A stretch of 64,000 nt of DNA from Klebsiella variicola (GTDB lineage: Bacteria > Pseudomonadota > Gammaproteobacteria > Enterobacterales > Enterobacteriaceae): contig NZ_CP010523.2 in assembly GCF_000828055.2 (NCBI RefSeq), forward strand, positions 3,720,001-3,784,000. The letters are read 5' to 3'. Of this stretch, positions 4,846-32,698 are shown piece by piece. Numbering within the stretch: the stretch's first letter is position 1; every line of letters begins with the position of its first letter. The translations under genes were made by a program, and so were the position numbers. A model generated the notes under the pieces. That model worked only from the letters and a program-made list of their open reading frames with translations, ran no database searches and was not told the DNA's origin.

Positions 4846-6048
4846 ATGACGACGCAAACCTCGCGCAGAGCGCTCCAGCTTCGGCTGTGGGCGCTGTTTA
4901 TGTTCTTTTTCATCCCCGGCTTATTAATGGCCTCATGGGCTACCCGCACGCCGGCGATCCGCGATCAGCTGATGCTTTCTACGGCAGAAATGGGCGTGGT
5001 GCTGTTTGGTCTGTCGGTGGGGTCGATGAGCGGTATTCTCTGCTCGGCGTGGCTGGTGAAGCGCTTTGGTACCCGCAAGGTCATCCGCACCACCATGTCC
5101 TTCGCCGTACTCGGCATGCTGGTGCTCAGCCTGGCCCTGTGGGTCTCTTCCGCCCCGCTGTTCGCCTTCGGCCTGGCCATCTTTGGCGCCAGCTTTGGCT
5201 CCGCCGAAGTCGCTATTAACGTCGAAGGCGCGGCCATCGAGCGAGAGATGAATAAAACGGTGCTGCCGATGATGCATGGCTTCTACAGCTTTGGCACCCT
5301 GTTCGGCGCCGGGGTGGGCATGGCAGTGACCGGATTCGGCCTGCCTGCCGCCCCGCATATCCTGGCGGCCGCGCTGGTGGCTATTCTGCCCATCGCCATT
5401 GCCATCCGCGCCATTCCCGATGGCACCGGTAAAAACGCCGCCGAAGCCGCCCACGGTGAGGCGAAAGGTCTGCCGGTATGGCGCGACGCGCAGCTACTGC
5501 TGATCGGGGTCATCGTCCTGGCGATGGCATTTGCCGAAGGCTCGGCCAACGACTGGCTGCCGCTGCTGATGGTGGACGGCCACGGCTTTAGCCCCACCTC
5601 CGGCTCGCTGATCTATGCCGGCTTCACCCTCGGCATGACGCTGGGCCGCTTTACCGGCGGCTGGTTTATCGATCGCTACAGCCGGGTGACGGTGGTCCGC
5701 GGCAGCGCGGTGATGGGCGCCCTGGGTATTGGCCTGATCATCTTCGTCGATAACCCCTGGGTGGCGGGCATCTCGGTACTGCTGTGGGGCATCGGCGCCT
5801 CGCTCGGCTTCCCGCTGACCATCTCCGCCGCCAGCGATACCGGGCCGGACGCGCCCAAGCGCGTCAGCGTGGTGGCGATCACCGGTTATCTTGCTTTCCT
5901 CGTCGGGCCGCCGCTGCTGGGCTTCCTCGGCGAACACTTCGGCCTGCGCAGCGCCATGATGGTGGTGCTGGGTCTGGTGATGGTGGCGGCACTGGTCGCC
6001 CGCGCGGTGGCTAAGCCACAATCTGAACCCGTTATGGAGAACAGCTAA
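4846..6048 (+). CDS. ybjJ: YbjJ, MFS transporter
   Basis: The 400-aa product starts at the ATG at 4846 ([22 protein letters not shown]), matching the E. coli YbjJ start; the open frame extends further upstream but has no matching sequence there. About twelve transmembrane segments are visible, with conserved blocks such as [16 protein letters not shown] and [18 protein letters not shown]. The substrate is unknown. The stop overlaps the start of ybjI (TAATG), so the two are translationally coupled. Confidence 0.93.
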
Positions 6049-24814: not shown

Positions 24815-26050
24815 ATGGATTTTACCGCCGGACTGATGCCGCTCGACACAGCCCTCGCCCAGATGCTCGATCGTATTACGCCGCTGAACGCGACGGAAAC
24901 TGTACCGCTGTTGCAGGCCTTCTCGCGTGTGACCGCCCATGACATCGTCTCCCCGCTGGATGTGCCCGGCTTTGATAACGCCGCGATGGATGGCTATGCC
25001 GTCCGGCTAAGCGACCTTCGCGACGGCGCGGCGCTGCCGGTCGCCGGTAAGGCCTTTGCCGGCCAACCGTTTCACGAGACCTGGCCCACCGGCACCTGTA
25101 TCCGCATCATGACCGGCGCGCCGGTGCCTGCGGGCTGCGACGCGGTGGTCATGCAGGAAGAGACCGAACAGACCGACGCCGGCGTGCACTTTACCGCGCC
25201 GGTGAAAGCCGGGCAGCACATTCGCCGTCGCGGAGAAGATATCGCCCACGGCGCGGTGGTCTTCCCGGCGGGGACGCCCCTGACGGTGGCCGAGCTGCCG
25301 GTGCTGGCCTCGCTGGGCATTGCCGAGGTCGAGGTGGTGCGCAAGGTCCGCGTCGCGGTCTTCTCAACCGGCGATGAGCTGCAGCTGCCGGGTCAACCGC
25401 TCGGCGACGGCCAGATTTACGATACCAACCGCCTGGCGGTGCACCTGATGCTGCAGCAGCTGGGCTACGAGGTCATTAACCTCGGCATTATTCCTGACGA
25501 CCCGGCGAAGCTGCGTGACGCGTTTATCGCCGCCGACCAGCAGGCCGACGTGGTCATCAGCTCCGGTGGCGTCTCGGTGGGCGAAGCCGACTACACCAAA
25601 ACCATTCTTGAAGAGCTGGGGGAGATCGGCTTCTGGAAACTGGCGATCAAGCCGGGGAAACCCTTCGCCTTCGGCAAACTCAGTAGCAGCTGGTTCTGCG
25701 GCCTGCCGGGTAACCCGGTTTCCGCCACCGTCACCTTCTGTCAGTTGGTGCAGCCGCTGCTGGCGAAACTCTCGGGCAAGCACGGCCCGCTTCAGGCAAC
25801 CCGCCTGCGGGTACGCGCCGCCACGCGACTGAAGAAGTCGCCGGGCCGTCTCGACTTCCAGCGCGGTATTCTGCAGCGCAACCCCGACGGCGAGCTGGTG
25901 GTGACCACCACCGGCCATCAGGGCTCGCACATTTTCAGCTCATTCAGCCTCGGTAACTGCTTTATCGTACTGGAGCGCGAACGCGGCCACGTCGAAGCGG
26001 GCGAATGGGTCGAAGTCGAGCCCTTTAATCATCTGTTTGGGGGGCTGTAA
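24815..26050 (+). CDS. moeA: MoeA, molybdopterin molybdenumtransferase
   Basis: The 411-aa protein inserts molybdate into adenylated molybdopterin in the last step of Moco synthesis. Characteristic blocks are [52 protein letters not shown] and [18 protein letters not shown] precedes the ATG. Its stop overlaps the moeB start (TAATG). Length equals that of E. coli MoeA. Confidence 0.97.
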
Positions 26051-26805
26051 TGGCCGTTGAGCTGAGCGACGAGGAGATGCTGCGCTATAACCGGCAGATC
26101 ATCTTGCGCGGTTTTGATTTCGACGGTCAGGAGCGGCTAAAAGCCGCTCGCGTACTGGTGGTCGGCCTCGGCGGGCTCGGCTGCGCCGCCGCTCAATATC
26201 TGGCGGCGGCCGGCGTGGGTCAGCTCACCCTGCTCGATTTCGACACCGTCTCGCTGTCCAACCTCCAGCGCCAGACGCTGCACAGCGACGCGACCATCGG
26301 CCAACCGAAGGTGGATTCTGCCCGCGAGGCGCTGGCGCGCATTAACCCGCACGTCCGGCTGGTCCCGCTCAATGCCTTGCTGGATGAGACCGCGCTGGCG
26401 GGGCAGATTGCCGATCACGATCTGGTGCTGGACTGCACCGACAACGTCGCCATTCGTAACCAGCTCAACGCCGGCTGTTTCCAGCACACCACCCCGCTGG
26501 TCTCCGGGGCGGCGATCCGCATGGAGGGGCAAATCAGCGTCTTCACGTATCAGGATGGCGAACCCTGCTACCGCTGCCTGAGCCGTCTGTTCGGCGAAAA
26601 TGCCCTCACCTGCGTCGAAGCCGGAGTAATGGCCCCGCTGGTGGGCACTATCGGTTCACTGCAGGCGATGGAGGCCATTAAACTGCTGACCGGCTACGGC
26701 ACCCCTGCCAGCGGAAAAATCGTGATGTACGACGCCATGACCTGCCAGTTTCGTGAAATGAAGCTGATGCGTCATCCGCAGTGCGAGGTATGCGGCTCGC
26801 ACTAA
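26050..26805 (+). CDS. moeB: MoeB, molybdopterin-synthase adenylyltransferase
   Basis: The 251-aa E1-like enzyme activates the C-terminus of MoaD with ATP. The nucleotide-binding GLGGLGCAAAQYLA loop is near residue 38, the D-rich DCTDNVAIRNQLN segment follows, and two CxxC pairs (CYRCL and CEVCG) bind zinc. It is translationally coupled to moeA. A hairpin with a T run follows. Confidence 0.97.
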   Translation: MAVELSDEEMLRYNRQIILRGFDFDGQERLKAARVLVVGLGGLGCAAAQYLAAAGVGQLTLLDFDTVSLSNLQRQTLHSDATIGQPKVDSAREALARINPHVRLVPLNALLDETALAGQIADHDLVLDCTDNVAIRNQLNAGCFQHTTPLVSGAAIRMEGQISVFTYQDGEPCYRCLSRLFGENALTCVEAGVMAPLVGTIGSLQAMEAIKLLTGYGTPASGKIVMYDAMTCQFREMKLMRHPQCEVCGSH

Positions 26806-26890: not shown

Positions 26891-26904
26891 TTGATTTGCG
26901 TCAA
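26891..26904. promoter_or_regulatory. FNR-type box upstream of ybiY
   Basis: TTGAT-TTGC-GTCAA matches the FNR consensus TTGAT-N4-ATCAA at nine of ten positions. It lies 55 bp upstream of the ybiY start. Oxygen-responsive control fits, since the operon encodes an oxygen-sensitive glycyl radical enzyme and its activase. Confidence 0.65.
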
Positions 26905-26908
26905 TATA

Positions 26909-26924
26909 ACTTTCATTCGAAAGT
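26909..26924. promoter_or_regulatory. Shared operator, copy 1 (ybiYW)
   Basis: ACTTTC-ATTC-GAAAGT is a perfect 6-bp inverted repeat with a 4-bp spacer, just downstream of the FNR box and 35 bp before the ybiY start. The same 12-base core TTTCATTCGAAA occurs at 30395 before ybiV and, inverted, at 31404 before ybiU. Confidence 0.75.
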
Positions 26925-26959
26925 GTTTTTATATTCATACGCAAACAAGAGGATAAGCC

Positions 26960-27859
26960 ATGATCTTCAACATCCAGCGCTACTCCACCCATGACGGCCC
27001 AGGGATCCGTACCGTCGTCTTCCTGAAAGGCTGCTCGCTGGGCTGCCGCTGGTGCCAGAACCCGGAAAGCCGCGCCCGCAGCGAAGATCTGCTGTATGAC
27101 TCGCGGCTGTGCCTGGCCGGCTGCGATCTGTGCCAGCAGGCGGCGCCGGAGGTTATCACCCGTACCCTCGATGGTTTGATCATTGATCGGCAAAACGTTA
27201 ACGACAAGCATATTACTGCGCTGCGTGACTGCTGCCCCACCACCGCGCTAACGGTCTGCGGCGAGGAGAAAAACGTCGAAGCGATCATGGCGACGGTGCT
27301 GCGTGATAAACCGTTCTACGATCGCAGCGGCGGCGGCATCACCCTTTCCGGCGGCGAACCCTTTATGAACCCGACGCTGGCGCAGGCGCTTTTCGAAGCC
27401 AGCCATCAGGCAGGTATTCACACCGCCGTGGAAACCTGCCTGCACGTGCCGTGGAAATACATTGAACCGGCTTTACCCTTTGTCGACCTGTTTCTCGCCG
27501 ACCTGAAACACGTCGACGAGGCCGTTTTCCAGCAGTGGACCGACGGCAGCGCCCGCCGGGTGCTGGATAACCTGCAGCGACTGGCGCAGGCAGGGAAAAA
27601 AATGATTATTCGCGTGCCGCTGATCCAGGGATTCAACGCCAGTGAAGCCGACATTGCCGCGATCACCGATTTTGCCGCCGACCGCCTGCAGGTCAGCGAG
27701 ATCCATTTCCTGCCGTACCACACGCTGGGAATGAACAAATACCAGTTACTCAGTCAGCCCTACACCGCACCGGACAAACCGCTGGATGCTCCTGAGCTGC
27801 TCGCCTTCGCGCAGGATTATGCGCGGAGCAAGGGGCTAACGGCGATCTTACGAGGATAA
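26960..27859 (+). CDS. ybiY: YbiY, glycyl-radical enzyme activase (radical SAM)
   Basis: The 299-aa radical SAM activase has the CxxxCxxC cluster motif at C25, C29 and C32 ([13 protein letters not shown]), then an inserted ferredoxin-like segment with extra cysteines ([18 protein letters not shown]), and the [12 protein letters not shown]-binding block. It generates the glycyl radical on YbiW, encoded four bases downstream. E. coli YbiY (PflE) is the counterpart. The ATG is preceded by AGAGGATAAG. Confidence 0.94.
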
Positions 27860-27863
27860 CCTT

Positions 27864-30296
27864 ATGACGACTCTCAAACTCAATACCCTCAGCGCCCGCA
27901 TCCAGGCCCATAAAATGGCACTGGTGCATATTGTCAAACCGCCGGTCTGTACCGAACGCGCCCGCCACTACACCGAGATGTATCAGCAGCATCTTGATAA
28001 GCCAATCCCGGTGCGTCGCGCCCTGGCGCTGGCGCATCACCTTGCCGAGCGCACCATCTGGATCAAGCACGACGAACTGATCGTCGGCAACCAGGCCAGC
28101 GAAGTGCGCGCTGCGCCGATTTTCCCGGAATACACCGTCAGCTGGATTGAGAAAGAGATCGACGATCTTGCCGACCGCCCCGGCGCCGGCTTCTCGGTCA
28201 GCGAAGAGAACAAACGCGTGCTGCATGAAGTGTGCCCATGGTGGCGCGGGCAGACCGTACAGGACCGCTGCTACGGTATGTTTACCGATGAGCAGAAGGC
28301 GCTCCTCGCCACCGGTATTATCAAGGCGGAAGGCAACATGACTTCCGGTGACGCCCACCTGGCGGTCAACTTCCCGTTACTGCTGGAGAAAGGCCTCGAC
28401 GGCATGCGCGCCAAGGTTGCTGAACGCCGGTCGCGCATTAACCTGACGGTACTGGAAGACCTGCACGGCGAGCAGTTCCTGAAAGCGATTGATATCGTTC
28501 TGGAAGCGGTCAGCGACCACAGCAAACGCTTCGCCGCGCTGGCGCGCGAGATGGCGACAGCAGAATCCCGTGAATCACGCCGCCACGAACTGCTGACGAT
28601 AGCCGAAAACTGCGACATCATCGCCCATGAGCCGCCGAAAACCTTCTGGCAGGCGCTGCAGCTGTGCTACTTCATTCAGCTTATCCTGCAGATTGAATCC
28701 AATGGCCACTCGGTCTCCTTTGGCCGTATGGACCAGTACCTCTATCCGTACTACCGTCGCGACGTTGAACTGCAGCAGTCGCTGGATCGCGAACAGGCCA
28801 TTGAGCTGCTGCACAGCTGCTGGCTGAAGCTGCTGGAGGTCAACAAAATTCGCTCCGGCTCGCACTCCAAGGCCTCTGCCGGCAGCCCGCTGTACCAGAA
28901 CGTCACCATTGGCGGCCAGAACCTGGTCGACGGCCAGCCGCAGGACGCCGTCAACCCGCTGTCGTATGCCATCCTGGAATCCTGTGGTCGTCTGCGCTCT
29001 ACCCAGCCGAACCTCAGCGTGCGTTACCATGCCGGGATGAGCAACGACTTCCTCGACGCCTGCGTCCAGGTTATCCGCTGCGGCTTCGGCATGCCGGCGT
29101 TTAATAACGACGAAATCGTCATCCCGGAATTTATCAAACTCGGCATCGAGCCGCAGGACGCCTACGATTACGCCGCCATCGGCTGCATCGAAACCGCGGT
29201 TGGCGGCAAATGGGGCTACCGCTGCACCGGCATGAGCTTTATCAACTTCGCGCGGGTGATGCTGGCGACGCTGGAAGGTGGCCGCGATGCCACCAGCGGT
29301 CAGGTATTCCTGCCCCAGGAGCATGCCCTGTCGAAAGGCAACTTCGCTAATTTCGACCAGGTGCTGGCAGACTGGGATAACCAGATCCGCTACTACACCC
29401 GTAAATCCATTGAGATTGAGTACGTGGTCGATACCATGCTGGAGGAAAACGTCCACGATATTCTCTGTTCGGCGCTGGTGGATGACTGTATCGAACGGGC
29501 GAAAAGCATCAAGCAAGGCGGCGCGAAATATGACTGGGTTTCTGGCCTGCAGGTGGGTATCGCCAACCTCGGCAACAGCCTGGCGGCGGTGAAAAAACTG
29601 GTCTTCGATCAGGGCGCCATCGGCCAGCAGGAACTGGCGAAGGCGCTGGCGGAAGATTTCGACGGTCTGACCCACGAGCAACTGCGCCAACGGTTGATCA
29701 ACGGCGCGCCGAAGTACGGTAACGATGATGACAGCGTCGACGAGTTGCTGGCGCGGGCCTACCAGACCTATATCGACGAGCTGAAGCAGTATCACAACCC
29801 GCGCTATGGCCGCGGCCCAATCGGCGGCAACTATTACGCCGGCACGTCGTCTATCTCCGCCAACGTTCCGTTCGGCGCCCAGACGATGGCGACACCGGAT
29901 GGCCGTAAAGCGCACACCCCGCTGGCGGAAGGGGCCAGCCCGGCCTCCGGTACCGACCATCTGGGGCCGACAGCGGTCATCAGTTCGGTGGGCAAACTCC
30001 CCACCGGCGCGATCCTCGGCGGCGTGCTGCTTAACCAGAAGCTGAATCCGTCCACCCTGGAGAATGAGTCCGACAAGCAGAAGCTGATGGTGCTGCTGCG
30101 CACCTTCTTCGAGGTGCACAAAGGCTGGCATATCCAGTACAACATCGTGTCCCGCGACACGCTGCTGGAGGCGAAGAAACACCCTGACCAGTACCGCGAT
30201 TTAGTGGTCCGCGTCGCCGGATACTCGGCGTTCTTCACCGCCCTGTCGCCGGATACCCAGGACGATATCATCGCCCGAACCGAACATACGCTGTAA
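27864..30296 (+). CDS. ybiW: YbiW, glycyl radical enzyme
   Basis: The 810-aa enzyme has the thiyl cysteine C441 in AIGCIETAVGG (with E443) and the glycyl radical G786 in RVAGYSAFF, both typical of the dehydratase branch of the PFL-like family. Length equals that of E. coli YbiW (PflF). E. coli YbiW has been reported to cleave the ring C-O bond of 1,5-anhydroglucitol-6-phosphate to 1-deoxyfructose-6-phosphate; the same activity is inferred here. It is active only without oxygen and is paired with its activase YbiY. Confidence 0.93.
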   Translation: MTTLKLNTLSARIQAHKMALVHIVKPPVCTERARHYTEMYQQHLDKPIPVRRALALAHHLAERTIWIKHDELIVGNQASEVRAAPIFPEYTVSWIEKEIDDLADRPGAGFSVSEENKRVLHEVCPWWRGQTVQDRCYGMFTDEQKALLATGIIKAEGNMTSGDAHLAVNFPLLLEKGLDGMRAKVAERRSRINLTVLEDLHGEQFLKAIDIVLEAVSDHSKRFAALAREMATAESRESRRHELLTIAENCDIIAHEPPKTFWQALQLCYFIQLILQIESNGHSVSFGRMDQYLYPYYRRDVELQQSLDREQAIELLHSCWLKLLEVNKIRSGSHSKASAGSPLYQNVTIGGQNLVDGQPQDAVNPLSYAILESCGRLRSTQPNLSVRYHAGMSNDFLDACVQVIRCGFGMPAFNNDEIVIPEFIKLGIEPQDAYDYAAIGCIETAVGGKWGYRCTGMSFINFARVMLATLEGGRDATSGQVFLPQEHALSKGNFANFDQVLADWDNQIRYYTRKSIEIEYVVDTMLEENVHDILCSALVDDCIERAKSIKQGGAKYDWVSGLQVGIANLGNSLAAVKKLVFDQGAIGQQELAKALAEDFDGLTHEQLRQRLINGAPKYGNDDDSVDELLARAYQTYIDELKQYHNPRYGRGPIGGNYYAGTSSISANVPFGAQTMATPDGRKAHTPLAEGASPASGTDHLGPTAVISSVGKLPTGAILGGVLLNQKLNPSTLENESDKQKLMVLLRTFFEVHKGWHIQYNIVSRDTLLEAKKHPDQYRDLVVRVAGYSAFFTALSPDTQDDIIARTEHTL

Positions 30297-30304
30297 CCCT
30301 TCGT

Positions 30305-30374
30305 GCCCGCTGGCGCTATGCTTAGCGGGCCTACCCTGTTCTGCAGGCCGGGTAAGGCAACGTTGCCACCCGGC
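30305..30374. repeat. BIME: two opposed REP units between ybiW and ybiV
   Basis: Unit one, 30305-30334, starts GCCCGCTGGCGC and ends GCGGGCCTAC. Unit two, 30343-30374, is in the opposite orientation (AGGCCGGGTAAGGC to GCCACCCGGC). The pair lies just after the ybiW stop and may protect the ybiYW mRNA end. Confidence 0.8.
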
Positions 30375-30392
30375 ATTTTCTGCGCTGAGTGA

Positions 30393-30407
30393 ACTTTCAT
30401 TCGAAAT
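30393..30407. promoter_or_regulatory. Shared operator, copy 2 (ybiV)
   Basis: ACTTTC-ATTC-GAAAT, with the core TTTCATTCGAAA at 30395-30406, lies 69 bp upstream of the ybiV start. It is identical to copy 1 for 14 consecutive bases, in the same orientation. Confidence 0.75.
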
Positions 30408-30476
30408 AAATTTGTGCTCCCCATCACATTGTAATTAGAATGTTACTGGTCGAAGTTAAGCCAGGAGCATCCCCTT

Positions 30477-31292
30477 ATGACCGTTAAAGTTATCGTCACC
30501 GATATGGACGGAACTTTTCTCAATGACGCCAAAACCTACGATCGCTCACGGTTTCTGGCGCAATTCGCCCAGCTGCAGCAGCGCGGCATTGAATTTGTTG
30601 TCGCCAGCGGCAACCAGTACTATCAGTTGATCTCCTTCTTCCCGGAGATCCGCGAGCAGATTTCGTTCGTCGCCGAAAACGGCGCGCTGGTCTTTGAGCA
30701 TGGTAAGCAGCTGTTCCACGGCGAACTGACCCGCCACGAATCGCAGGTGGTGATCGGCGAATTACTTAACGATCCGCAGCTGAACTTCGTCGCCTGCGGC
30801 CTGCAGAGCGCGTATGTGAGCGATAAAGCTCCGGACGCCTTCGTCGACCTGATGTCAAAGCACTACCACCGTCTGCAGCGGGTAAGCGATTACCACCGCA
30901 TCGACGACACGCTGTTCAAATTCTCCCTCAACCTGCCGGACAGCGAGATCCCACAGCTGATCGATAAACTGCACGTGTCGCTCGACGGGATCATGAAGCC
31001 GGTCACCAGCGGCTTTGGCTTTGTCGATTTGATTATCCCCGGCCTGCATAAAGCCAACGGCATCAGCCGCCTGCTCAAACGCTGGAACCTTTCGCCGCAG
31101 CAGTGCGTGGCCATCGGCGACAGCGGCAACGACGCCGAAATGCTGAAGCTGGTGAAATACGCTTTCGCCATGGGTAACGCCGCCGACACCATCAAGGCTA
31201 TCGCCGGCTACGCCACTGACGATAATAACCATGACGGCGCGCTGAACGTCATTCAGGCCGTCCTCGATAATACCGCTCCCTTCAACGCGTGA
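30477..31292 (+). CDS. ybiV: YbiV, Cof-type HAD sugar phosphatase
   Basis: The 271-aa HAD hydrolase has DMDGTFL (nucleophile, near residue 9), VVASGNQ (motif II), GLHKANG (motif III) and [11 protein letters not shown] (motif IV), with a C2B cap. E. coli YbiV dephosphorylates sugar phosphates such as ribose-5-phosphate and glucose-6-phosphate in vitro. Its position beside ybiW and its own copy of the shared operator suggest a role with the anhydrosugar locus. It is close in sequence to YbjI. Confidence 0.95.
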
Positions 31293-31401
31293 CCCTTCGC
31301 CGGGGCATCGCGCCCCGGTTTTTCCATTTTGTGCGCCGTAGCAAGATTTTAAACTTGCATTAACTCCATTTTAACTTAAATTAACGTTTGTAATATTTAA
31401 T

Positions 31402-31417
31402 ACTTTCGAATGAAAGA
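31402..31417. promoter_or_regulatory. Shared operator, copy 3 (ybiU)
   Basis: ACTTTC-GAAT-GAAAGA is the reverse-orientation version of copies 1 and 2 (spacer GAAT is the complement of ATTC), with the core TTTCGAATGAAA at 31404-31415. It ends 15 bp before the ybiU start, a position typical for a repressor site. Confidence 0.75.
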
Positions 31418-31432
31418 TACAGCGAGGTTATT

Positions 31433-32698
31433 ATGGCTGCTCTCCCGACCCACGAAACATTACCTGCCGACCACAAAGCGGCAATTCGCCAGATGAAACA
31501 GGCCTTACGGGCACAAATTGGCGATGTCCAGGCAGTGTTCGATAAACTCTCGGCGCGTATCAGCGAGCGCCTGGACGAGATTAATGCCCTGAAAGCCACA
31601 GGCCAGGAGGTCTGGCCGACGATCCCGTTCAGCGATATCGCCGAAGGAAAAGTGAGCGATGAGCAGCGCGCGGCGATTAAGCGCCGGGGCTGCGCAGTGA
31701 TCAAAGGACACTACCCGCGCGAACAGGCGCTGGCCTGGGACAACGCGATGCTGGAATACCTCGATCTGAACCATTTCGATGATGTTTACAAAGGACCTGG
31801 CGACAGCTTCTTCGGTTCGCTGGAGGCTTCGCGTCCGGAAATCTATCCGATCTACTGGTCCCCCTCGCAAATGCAGGCGCGACAGAGTGATGAAATGGCG
31901 GCGGTGCAATCCTTCCTCAATCGCCTGTGGCGCTTTGAACAGAATGGCAAGCGCTGGTTCGATCCGGATGTCAGCGTGATTTACCCTGACCGTATCCGCC
32001 GCCGCCCGCCGGGAACCACGTCAAAGGGGCTGGGGGCGCATACCGATTCTGGCGCGCTGGAGCGCTGGCTGCTTCCCGCCTATCAGCAGGTTTTCGCCAA
32101 CGTCTTTAATGGCAATATCGACGCCTACGATCCGTGGGACGCCGCGCACCGTACCGAAGTGGAAGAGTACACCGTCGACAACACCACCAAATGCTCGGTG
32201 TTCCGCACCTTCCAGGGCTGGACCGCGCTGTCGGACATGATCCCGGGTCAGGGGCTGCTACACGTGGTGCCGATCCCGGAGGCGATGGCTTATGTGCTGC
32301 TGCGCCCCCTGCTCGACGATGTGCCGGAAGATGAGCTGTGCGGCGTCGCGCCGGGCAGAGTGCTGCCGATCTCTGAGCAATGGCACCCACTCTTAATTAA
32401 AGCGTTAAGCTCGATTCCGGCGCTGAACGCTGGCGATTCCGTCTGGTGGCACTGCGATGTTATTCACTCAGTGGCGCCGGTGGAAAATCAACAGGGCTGG
32501 GGCAACGTGATGTACATCCCGGCCGCGCCGATGTGCGAAAAGAACCTCGCCTACGCGCAGAAAGTGAAAATTGCTCTGGAAAAAGGGGCCTCGCCGGGGG
32601 ATTTCCCGCGCGAGGACTATGAGGCCAGCTGGCAGGGGCGCTTCACCCTGGAAGATCTGAATATTCACGGGAAACGGGCGCTGGGTATCCCGGTTTAA
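31433..32698 (+). CDS. ybiU: YbiU, DUF1479 family protein, probable Fe(II)/2OG-type oxygenase
   Basis: The 421-aa protein corresponds to E. coli YbiU. Residues H203 and D205 (GLGAHTDSGALERW) and H345 (CDVIHSVAPV) have the spacing and order of the HxD...H iron triad of 2-oxoglutarate dioxygenases, so an oxygenase-like fold is likely, though the reaction is not known. The shared operator links it to ybiYW and ybiV. Its stop codon overlaps the stop of the convergent LacI gene by four bases. Confidence 0.9.
   Translation: MAALPTHETLPADHKAAIRQMKQALRAQIGDVQAVFDKLSARISERLDEINALKATGQEVWPTIPFSDIAEGKVSDEQRAAIKRRGCAVIKGHYPREQALAWDNAMLEYLDLNHFDDVYKGPGDSFFGSLEASRPEIYPIYWSPSQMQARQSDEMAAVQSFLNRLWRFEQNGKRWFDPDVSVIYPDRIRRRPPGTTSKGLGAHTDSGALERWLLPAYQQVFANVFNGNIDAYDPWDAAHRTEVEEYTVDNTTKCSVFRTFQGWTALSDMIPGQGLLHVVPIPEAMAYVLLRPLLDDVPEDELCGVAPGRVLPISEQWHPLLIKALSSIPALNAGDSVWWHCDVIHSVAPVENQQGWGNVMYIPAAPMCEKNLAYAQKVKIALEKGASPGDFPREDYEASWQGRFTLEDLNIHGKRALGIPV

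Follow-up and report, generated by a model that had tools for sequence, protein, structure and literature searches.

The 64-kb stretch of DNA analysed here (the window; Klebsiella variicola, contig NZ_CP010523.2, positions 3,720,001 to 3,784,000) carries, beyond moeB, the gene pair ybiYW, encoding a glycyl radical enzyme and its activase, followed by ybiV and ybiU, and each of these three units is preceded by a copy of one short palindromic operator, at which the acting repressor is very probably YciT, a member of the DeoR family. The features are listed below in window coordinates; the gene names were assigned by comparison with Escherichia coli K-12.

26050-26805, plus strand: moeB
26910..26923, plus strand: operator copy 1, CTTTCATTCGAAAG, before ybiYW; kept with at most two mismatches in 35 of 39 genomes
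26960..27859, plus strand: ybiY, glycyl radical enzyme activase (Radical_SAM; TIGR02494)
27864..30296, plus strand: ybiW, glycyl radical enzyme (PFL-like and Gly_radical domains; close match to the solved YbiW structures 8id7 and 8yjn)
30394..30407, plus strand: operator copy 2, CTTTCATTCGAAAT, before ybiV; kept with at most two mismatches in 12 of 18 genomes and with at most three in 17 of 18
30477..31292, plus strand: ybiV, HAD-type sugar phosphatase (Hydrolase_3, Cof-subfamily)
31403..31416, minus strand: operator copy 3, CTTTCATTCGAAAG on the minus strand, before ybiU; kept with at most two mismatches in 19 of 19 genomes
31433..32698, plus strand: ybiU, Gig2-like (DUF1479) protein (PF07350; matches the solved YbiU structures 2csg and 2dbi)

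An earlier note on this DNA had placed a 12-base core, TTTCATTCGAAA, at 26911, 30395 and, inverted, 31404, 15-70 bp ahead of start codons, and had described copy 1 as a perfect dyad. A scan of the window reproduces these positions exactly (26911-26922 and 30395-30406 on the plus strand, 31404-31415 on the minus strand) and finds no fourth exact copy in the 64 kb, for which simple arithmetic predicts ~0.01 copies on both strands together; the gaps from the 12-mer to the start codon are 37 bp for ybiY (start 26960), 70 bp for ybiV (30477), and 17 bp for ybiU (31433). Copy 1 is a perfect dyad, ACTTTC-ATTC-GAAAGT (26909-26924), copy 3, which reads CTTTCGAATGAAAG on the plus strand, is a perfect 5+5 dyad, and copy 2 lacks the last G. 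With up to two mismatches allowed, the window holds 8 matches compared with a mean of 3.89 after shuffling (4 of 100 shuffles reach 8), and the signal therefore lies in the exact copies. Over the whole genome (5.52 Mb), the exact 12-mer occurs 5 times, as compared with once for a reversed control, and rather than being spread at random, which the earlier note had named as an outcome that would count against regulation, 3 of the 5 copies fall within these 4.5 kb. The 14-mer CTTTCATTCGAAAG is found with at most one mismatch at 4 places in the genome, 3 of them here; at up to two mismatches there are 16 places versus 34 for the reversed control, and weaker matches alone therefore carry no information.

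The operator is conserved at fixed distances before ybiY, ybiV, and ybiU across genera, and the lack of conservation that the earlier note had named as its second refuting outcome is not observed. Upstream regions of ybiY were taken from all 37 other genomes with a YbiY match among 119 genomes of the family, from K-12, and from the window (39 in all); the operator is exact in 23 of these and has one mismatch in 11, two in 1, and three in 4, while among 1560 shuffled upstream sequences none comes within one mismatch and 0.13% reach two. Two of the weak sites, in the relatives G032 (CCTTCATTAGAAGG) and G057 (GTTTCTTTCGAAAC), are perfect dyads kept through compensating changes in both arms; in G087 a near copy is kept, and in G040 the site is lost. 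Before ybiV (18 genomes with the gene in the stretch), 9 sites have one mismatch, 3 have two, and 5 have three, with 1 genome having none; before ybiU (19 genomes), 10 sites are exact, 7 have one mismatch, and 2 have two. Sites with at most two mismatches lie 31-66 bp before ybiY, 67-70 bp before ybiV, and 7-16 bp before ybiU (38 bp in G075), and in K-12 each of the three places carries the 12-mer core without mismatch. Within the genus of the window, all 20 genomes hold at least two sites matching CTTTCRTTCGAARG with at most one mismatch and 17 of the 20 hold three within 5.5 kb (in G129 across a contig break), as judged by position only. It is likely that ybiV and ybiU each have their own promoter.

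The available passages of a ChIP-exo study in E. coli K-12 place YciT peaks upstream of ybiV, ybiY, and fsaA and report altered expression of the same three genes when yciT is deleted (PMC8464067). In the DNA affinity capture and mass spectrometry data of a preprint, as given in its available passages, the E. coli ybiYW promoter, active under anaerobic conditions, enriches YciT (PMC12132413); the capture experiment suggested in the earlier note has in effect already been done in E. coli. The genes, the regulator family member, and the exact core at three K-12 places all agree with what is found here, the difference being that the window has no fsaA beside ybiY. The proposal that the glycyl radical enzyme is the centre of a small regulon sharing one operator is thus supported by cross-genus conservation together with the published E. 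coli data; to the shared operator, which stands, we add the regulator that the earlier note had left unnamed and the divergent fsaA, which in many relatives shares copy 1. It should be noted that the link of YciT to ybiY, ybiV, and fsaA in E. coli is already published. The cross-genus three-site array, the separate ybiU site, and the FNR arrangement, second dyad, and fsaA-ybiYW-yciT cluster described below seem to be new, and some of them may be in print in parts of the literature beyond the passages cited.

The YciT of the window genome is encoded at C1:3183493-3184230, between rnb and osmB, is 75% identical to K-12 YciT, and passes the NCBIfam model NF040887 (491.9 bits; cut-off 450); both proteins have HTH_DeoR and DeoRC domains, and the gene order rnb-yciT-osmB-yciH is the same in both genomes. 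The ybiU-linked protein of G031 (366.6 bits) and the fsa-linked protein of G040 (365.4 bits) fall under the cut-off, though YciT is their best model. In the wider order, 52 of 295 genomes have a YciT match at E ≤1e-60, 36 of them in other families. Local sugar regulators of the DeoR family include GlpR, UlaR, SrlR, AgaR, and DeoR; YciT resembles them in its HTH_DeoR and DeoRC sensor domains, in the suggestion of paired sites, and in that yciT in many relatives stands beside its pathway, and it differs from them in that yciT of the window genome and of K-12 lies ~0.5 Mb from its targets.

Regulator and pathway travel together. Among the 119 family genomes, YbiY is found in 38 (E ≤1e-80) and YciT in 46 (E ≤1e-50), with YciT present in 38 of the 38 genomes with YbiY and in 8 without it. 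Counting genomes of at least 3.5 Mb (71 in all), 38 have both, none has YbiY only, 8 have YciT only, and 25 have neither; the genomes are related, and no probability is attached to these numbers. In 13 of the 37 relatives fetched, yciT is the next gene after ybiW and has the same orientation, and G024 shows this too, on another contig; in G057 the two are adjacent but on opposite strands, and in G075 yciT lies 1.6 kb beyond ybiW, following ybiU. The order fsaA, ybiY, ybiW, yciT, osmB, yciH, pyrF is found in 11 relatives, while in K-12 yciT stands with osmB, yciH, and pyrF but without the ybi genes, which adjoin moeB. Most simply, yciT and the pathway genes would have started out side by side and later been separated, a direction of change that we infer, leaving yciT as an orphan; the gene order in the 11 relatives would explain the present-day orphan regulator. 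G017 has two YciT copies, one (58%) behind ybiW (L068, oriented 4902-5585) and one (73%) elsewhere, and is a possible intermediate between the linked and the orphan state. In G020, G031, G068, and G106, genomes with no YbiY match, yciT follows ybiU, and the operator upstream of ybiU is exact in G031 and has one mismatch in G106. In G016, G032, G040, and G070, yciT is found beside an fsa gene, and G040, in which the ybiY site is lost, has an exact operator between fsaA and yciT.

Four further elements can be recognized around copies 1 and 2:

26891..26904, plus strand: FNR-like box TTGATTTGCGTCAA, centre 19 bp before the centre of copy 1; putative function
26927..26932, plus strand: candidate -10 element TTTTAT (family consensus TTTAAT), from the column consensus of 38 genomes
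26932..26945, plus strand: weak second dyad TATTCATACGCAAA, 22 bp after copy 1
30413..30428, plus strand: CRP-like box TGTGCTCCCCATCACA, 20 bp after copy 2, centre to centre

Boxes were scored against the FNR consensus. In 35 of 39 genomes, the centres of the ybiY operator and of an FNR-like box upstream of it (two mismatches at most) are exactly 19 bp apart; the distance is 18 bp in G035, an equally good box stands at 19 bp in G061 when aligned, and in G108 and G040 no box was found at the 19-bp spacing. When the best box of each region is taken, 28 of 39 genomes stay within one mismatch, as compared with 1.2% of shuffles. The column consensus of 38 genomes (G040, having lost the ybiY site, was left out of this and of the second-dyad analysis) reads gTTGA---a--TCAA-ataACTTTCaTTCGAAAGT-aTTTAAT, with 32 bp from the centre of the FNR-like box to the centre of TTTAAT and the operator filling the gap between them. 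In a class II FNR promoter, the box is centred near -41.5, ~32 bp before the centre of the -10 element. An operator between the FNR-like box and the -10 element would be in a place suited to blocking polymerase. Relative to the predicted ybiYW start, the available passages of one preprint put YciT near -5 and an activator that they leave unnamed near -20 (PMC12132413), and those of another suggest that the predicted start is possibly misplaced (PMC13228646). A start ~20 bp further downstream, as we propose, would fit both preprints and an FNR box near -41, and FNR is our candidate for the unnamed activator; no literature connecting ybiY with FNR was found in a search that left supplements and most subscription papers outside.

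At ybiY, among offsets of more than 4 bp, a second dyad scores highest at +22 bp (6.34 of 10 arm matches over 38 genomes; background 2.55, sd 0.86). At ybiU, the best offset is 22 bp upstream of the operator (5.89 of 10; background 2.53), with offset -35 close at 5.68, and at ybiV there is no second-dyad peak at 22 bp. Pairs 21-22 bp apart are also found in G020, G031, G040, and G106, their second members being weak (3-4 mismatches). Because offset -35 is nearly equal at ybiU and ybiV shows no peak, a tandem arrangement is argued for by ybiY and by the pairs in these four genomes. The CRP-like box is present with one mismatch 20-21 bp after the ybiV operator in 16 of 18 genomes; we give it no role at ybiV, since its distance to the candidate -10 element does not fit a standard activator position.

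In the breakdown of 1,5-anhydroglucitol, FsaA or FsaB and then GldA carry out the steps that follow 1-deoxyfructose-6-phosphate. Cleavage of 1,5-anhydroglucitol-6-phosphate by YbiW was reportedly found by Ma et al., whom a review cites as the source. According to the passage of the review, which is silent on regulation, E. coli YbiW converts 1,5-anhydroglucitol-6-phosphate anaerobically into 1-deoxyfructose-6-phosphate (PMC12441222). The window shares with this system the YbiW-type glycyl radical enzyme and its activase, and the window genome has the genes that the putative pathway calls for, those of a YbiW-type enzyme, its activase, and an Fsa aldolase (fsaB before gldA, C1:5383491); YbiV and YbiU, by contrast, have no known step there. 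Because YbiW cleaves this sugar phosphate, YciT probably represses the pathway for 1,5-anhydroglucitol-6-phosphate and is probably released by an intermediate. DeoR-family sensor domains usually bind phosphorylated sugars, and a pathway intermediate is therefore the first inducer candidate.

Taken together, we hold with considerable confidence that the three copies are YciT operators working in the following scheme. On copy 1, between the FNR-like box and the -10 element of ybiYW, YciT would block RNA polymerase; on copy 2 it would control ybiV beside the CRP-like box; and on copy 3 it would sit just ahead of the ybiU start. The weak dyad 22 bp off at ybiY and ybiU suggests that two YciT dimers or a tetramer may bind on one face of the DNA. 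A sugar phosphate of the pathway, most simply 1,5-anhydroglucitol-6-phosphate or 1-deoxyfructose-6-phosphate, would bind the DeoR sensor domain and lift repression, and FNR would add activation under anaerobic conditions alone, the state in which the radical enzyme is able to function. For an oxygen-sensitive enzyme acting on an occasional sugar, a promoter driven by FNR and repressed by YciT is fitting. A little-characterised DeoR-family regulator would thereby gain an operator and a set of conserved targets, and its likely pathway would be the breakdown of 1,5-anhydroglucitol in the absence of oxygen; this is a sugar of human blood, and the search for the inducer becomes a direct test.

Several observations weigh against this scheme. 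The YciT binding evidence is from E. coli only, and ybiU is not named among the targets in the available passages of PMC8464067 and PMC12132413; the affinity-capture lysate, as described there, came from aerobic cells (PMC12132413). RefSeq labels K-12 YciT a dual regulator. Of the genomes in which yciT follows ybiU, G020 and G068 carry three-mismatch candidates only, and no site within 4 mismatches is found between fsa and yciT in G016, G032, and G070. An FNR box with at most two mismatches is found somewhere in 160 bp in 15.5% of shuffles. Finally, the available passages of the ChIP-exo study report 49 YciT peaks, only 23 of which lie in regulatory regions, and a salt phenotype (PMC8464067).

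These last data would also suit YciT being chiefly an osmotic or envelope regulator, with the ybi sites a minor branch of a wide regulon: beside the 49 peaks, the same passages describe a yciT mutant that is slower at 0.5 M NaCl and a peak at ybiO (PMC8464067), yciT now neighbours osmB, and the yjfP-bsmA site described below hints at another conserved target. We consider this improbable, as the window genome has few exact cores (5, with 3 of them here) and the genes linked to yciT are ybiYW, fsaA, and ybiU. Closeness to osmB need not mean function because the osmB neighbourhood holds the whole fsaA-ybiYW-yciT cluster in 11 relatives; YciT may have come by its osmotic label through the history of the genome and not through what it does. 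Sites of related TTTC/GAAA type are read by DeoR-family regulators, and YciT has 13 further DeoR-type matches in the window genome (23-33% identity), so the operator might mainly be bound by another paralogue (SrlR, UlaR, AgaR, or other), the E. coli YciT signals being secondary; there is little to recommend this, as capture and ChIP in the available E. coli passages indicate YciT, it is yciT and no other paralogue that is found beside ybiYW, ybiU, or fsaA, and nothing within 4 mismatches of the operator occurs in the ulaR-ulaG-ulaA stretch of K-12. That the repeats arise by chance or belong to a common non-regulatory element, as might be argued because relatives hold exact cores at unrelated loci too (of the 59 outside the ybi/yciT loci, 32 are singletons), has a negligible chance of being right given the fixed distances to start codons over 39, 18, and 19 genomes and the failure of all 1560 shuffled ybiY upstream sequences to come within one mismatch.

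YciT repression of an anaerobic pathway can be extended in a direction that we regard as rather unlikely, namely that the genes under YciT form a single programme that handles 1,5-anhydroglucitol-6-phosphate with or without oxygen. FNR and YbiW would serve anaerobically, and aerobically YbiU would oxidize the compound and YbiV would dephosphorylate it, as human G6PC3 does; the ybiU-yciT pairs without YbiY (G020, G031, G068, G106) would then be the aerobic half alone. The YbiU translation shows HTD and later IHS, which may be iron ligands and would make YbiU a putative Fe(II)-dependent oxygenase.

Other occurrences of the core were counted in 45 of the 46 YciT genomes (G028, with a completeness of 49, was left out): the exact core is found 110 times, versus 18 times for the reversed control. 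The 59 exact places outside the ybi/yciT loci, L004 and L013 (see below) among them, comprise clusters of 17 (yjfP-bsmA), 4, 2, 2, and 2 and 32 singletons; the 42 non-bsmA places still exceed the 18 of the control; some may be additional targets, or the count for the reversed sequence, in which AAGCTT occurs, may be too low. The exact cores at L111 (G071), L119 (G048), L123 (G002), and L156 (G016) share a neighbouring gene by translated comparison. The yjfP-bsmA intergenic site, TTTTCATTCGAAAA (L013:1501-1514; G000:C1:5018998), has the exact core, and the same intergenic region has it in 17 of the 45 genomes and in K-12. It is a possible further target, and two observations speak against YciT there: of 20 more regions upstream of yjfP (only 203 bases in the case of G050), 15 are from YciT genomes, and 14 of these 15 have nothing within three mismatches, G028 having a shifted three-mismatch match; and G056, a genome without YciT, has the exact core. 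UlaR is not favoured as the regulator of yjfP-bsmA, given the ulaR-ulaG-ulaA result in K-12.

In the window genome, a site with 2 mismatches, CTTTCGTTCGAAGG, lies 51 bp upstream of fsaB-gldA (L014:1501-1514; G000:C1:5383426), fsaB being the only Fsa match at E ≤1e-60. The site also stands 51 bp before fsa in G130 and G131, so that it is confirmed in 3 of 20 genomes of the genus; near matches in the genus amount to 59 places in 19 genomes, and of 30 loci tested only the G130 and G131 sites adjoin an Fsa gene. The 26 other Fsa copies from relatives, including G001 of the same genus, have no site within 3 mismatches. Since the genome at 2 mismatches holds no more sites than the control, the fsaB site is kept as a lead only; it could reflect recent recruitment of the next pathway steps, or chance. 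A fourth site in the genome, with 1 mismatch, lies before a TIM-barrel / Gfo-Idh pair (L004:1501-1514; G000:C1:4142366) and also stands before the TIM-barrel gene in G130 and G131; by arithmetic, ~2 places with at most one mismatch are expected by chance in 5.5 Mb. In G081, G096, G072, and G045 (L190, L191, L204, L207), where fsaB has no ptsA ahead of it, a CRP-like box with at most one mismatch lies 114-123 bp before fsaB.

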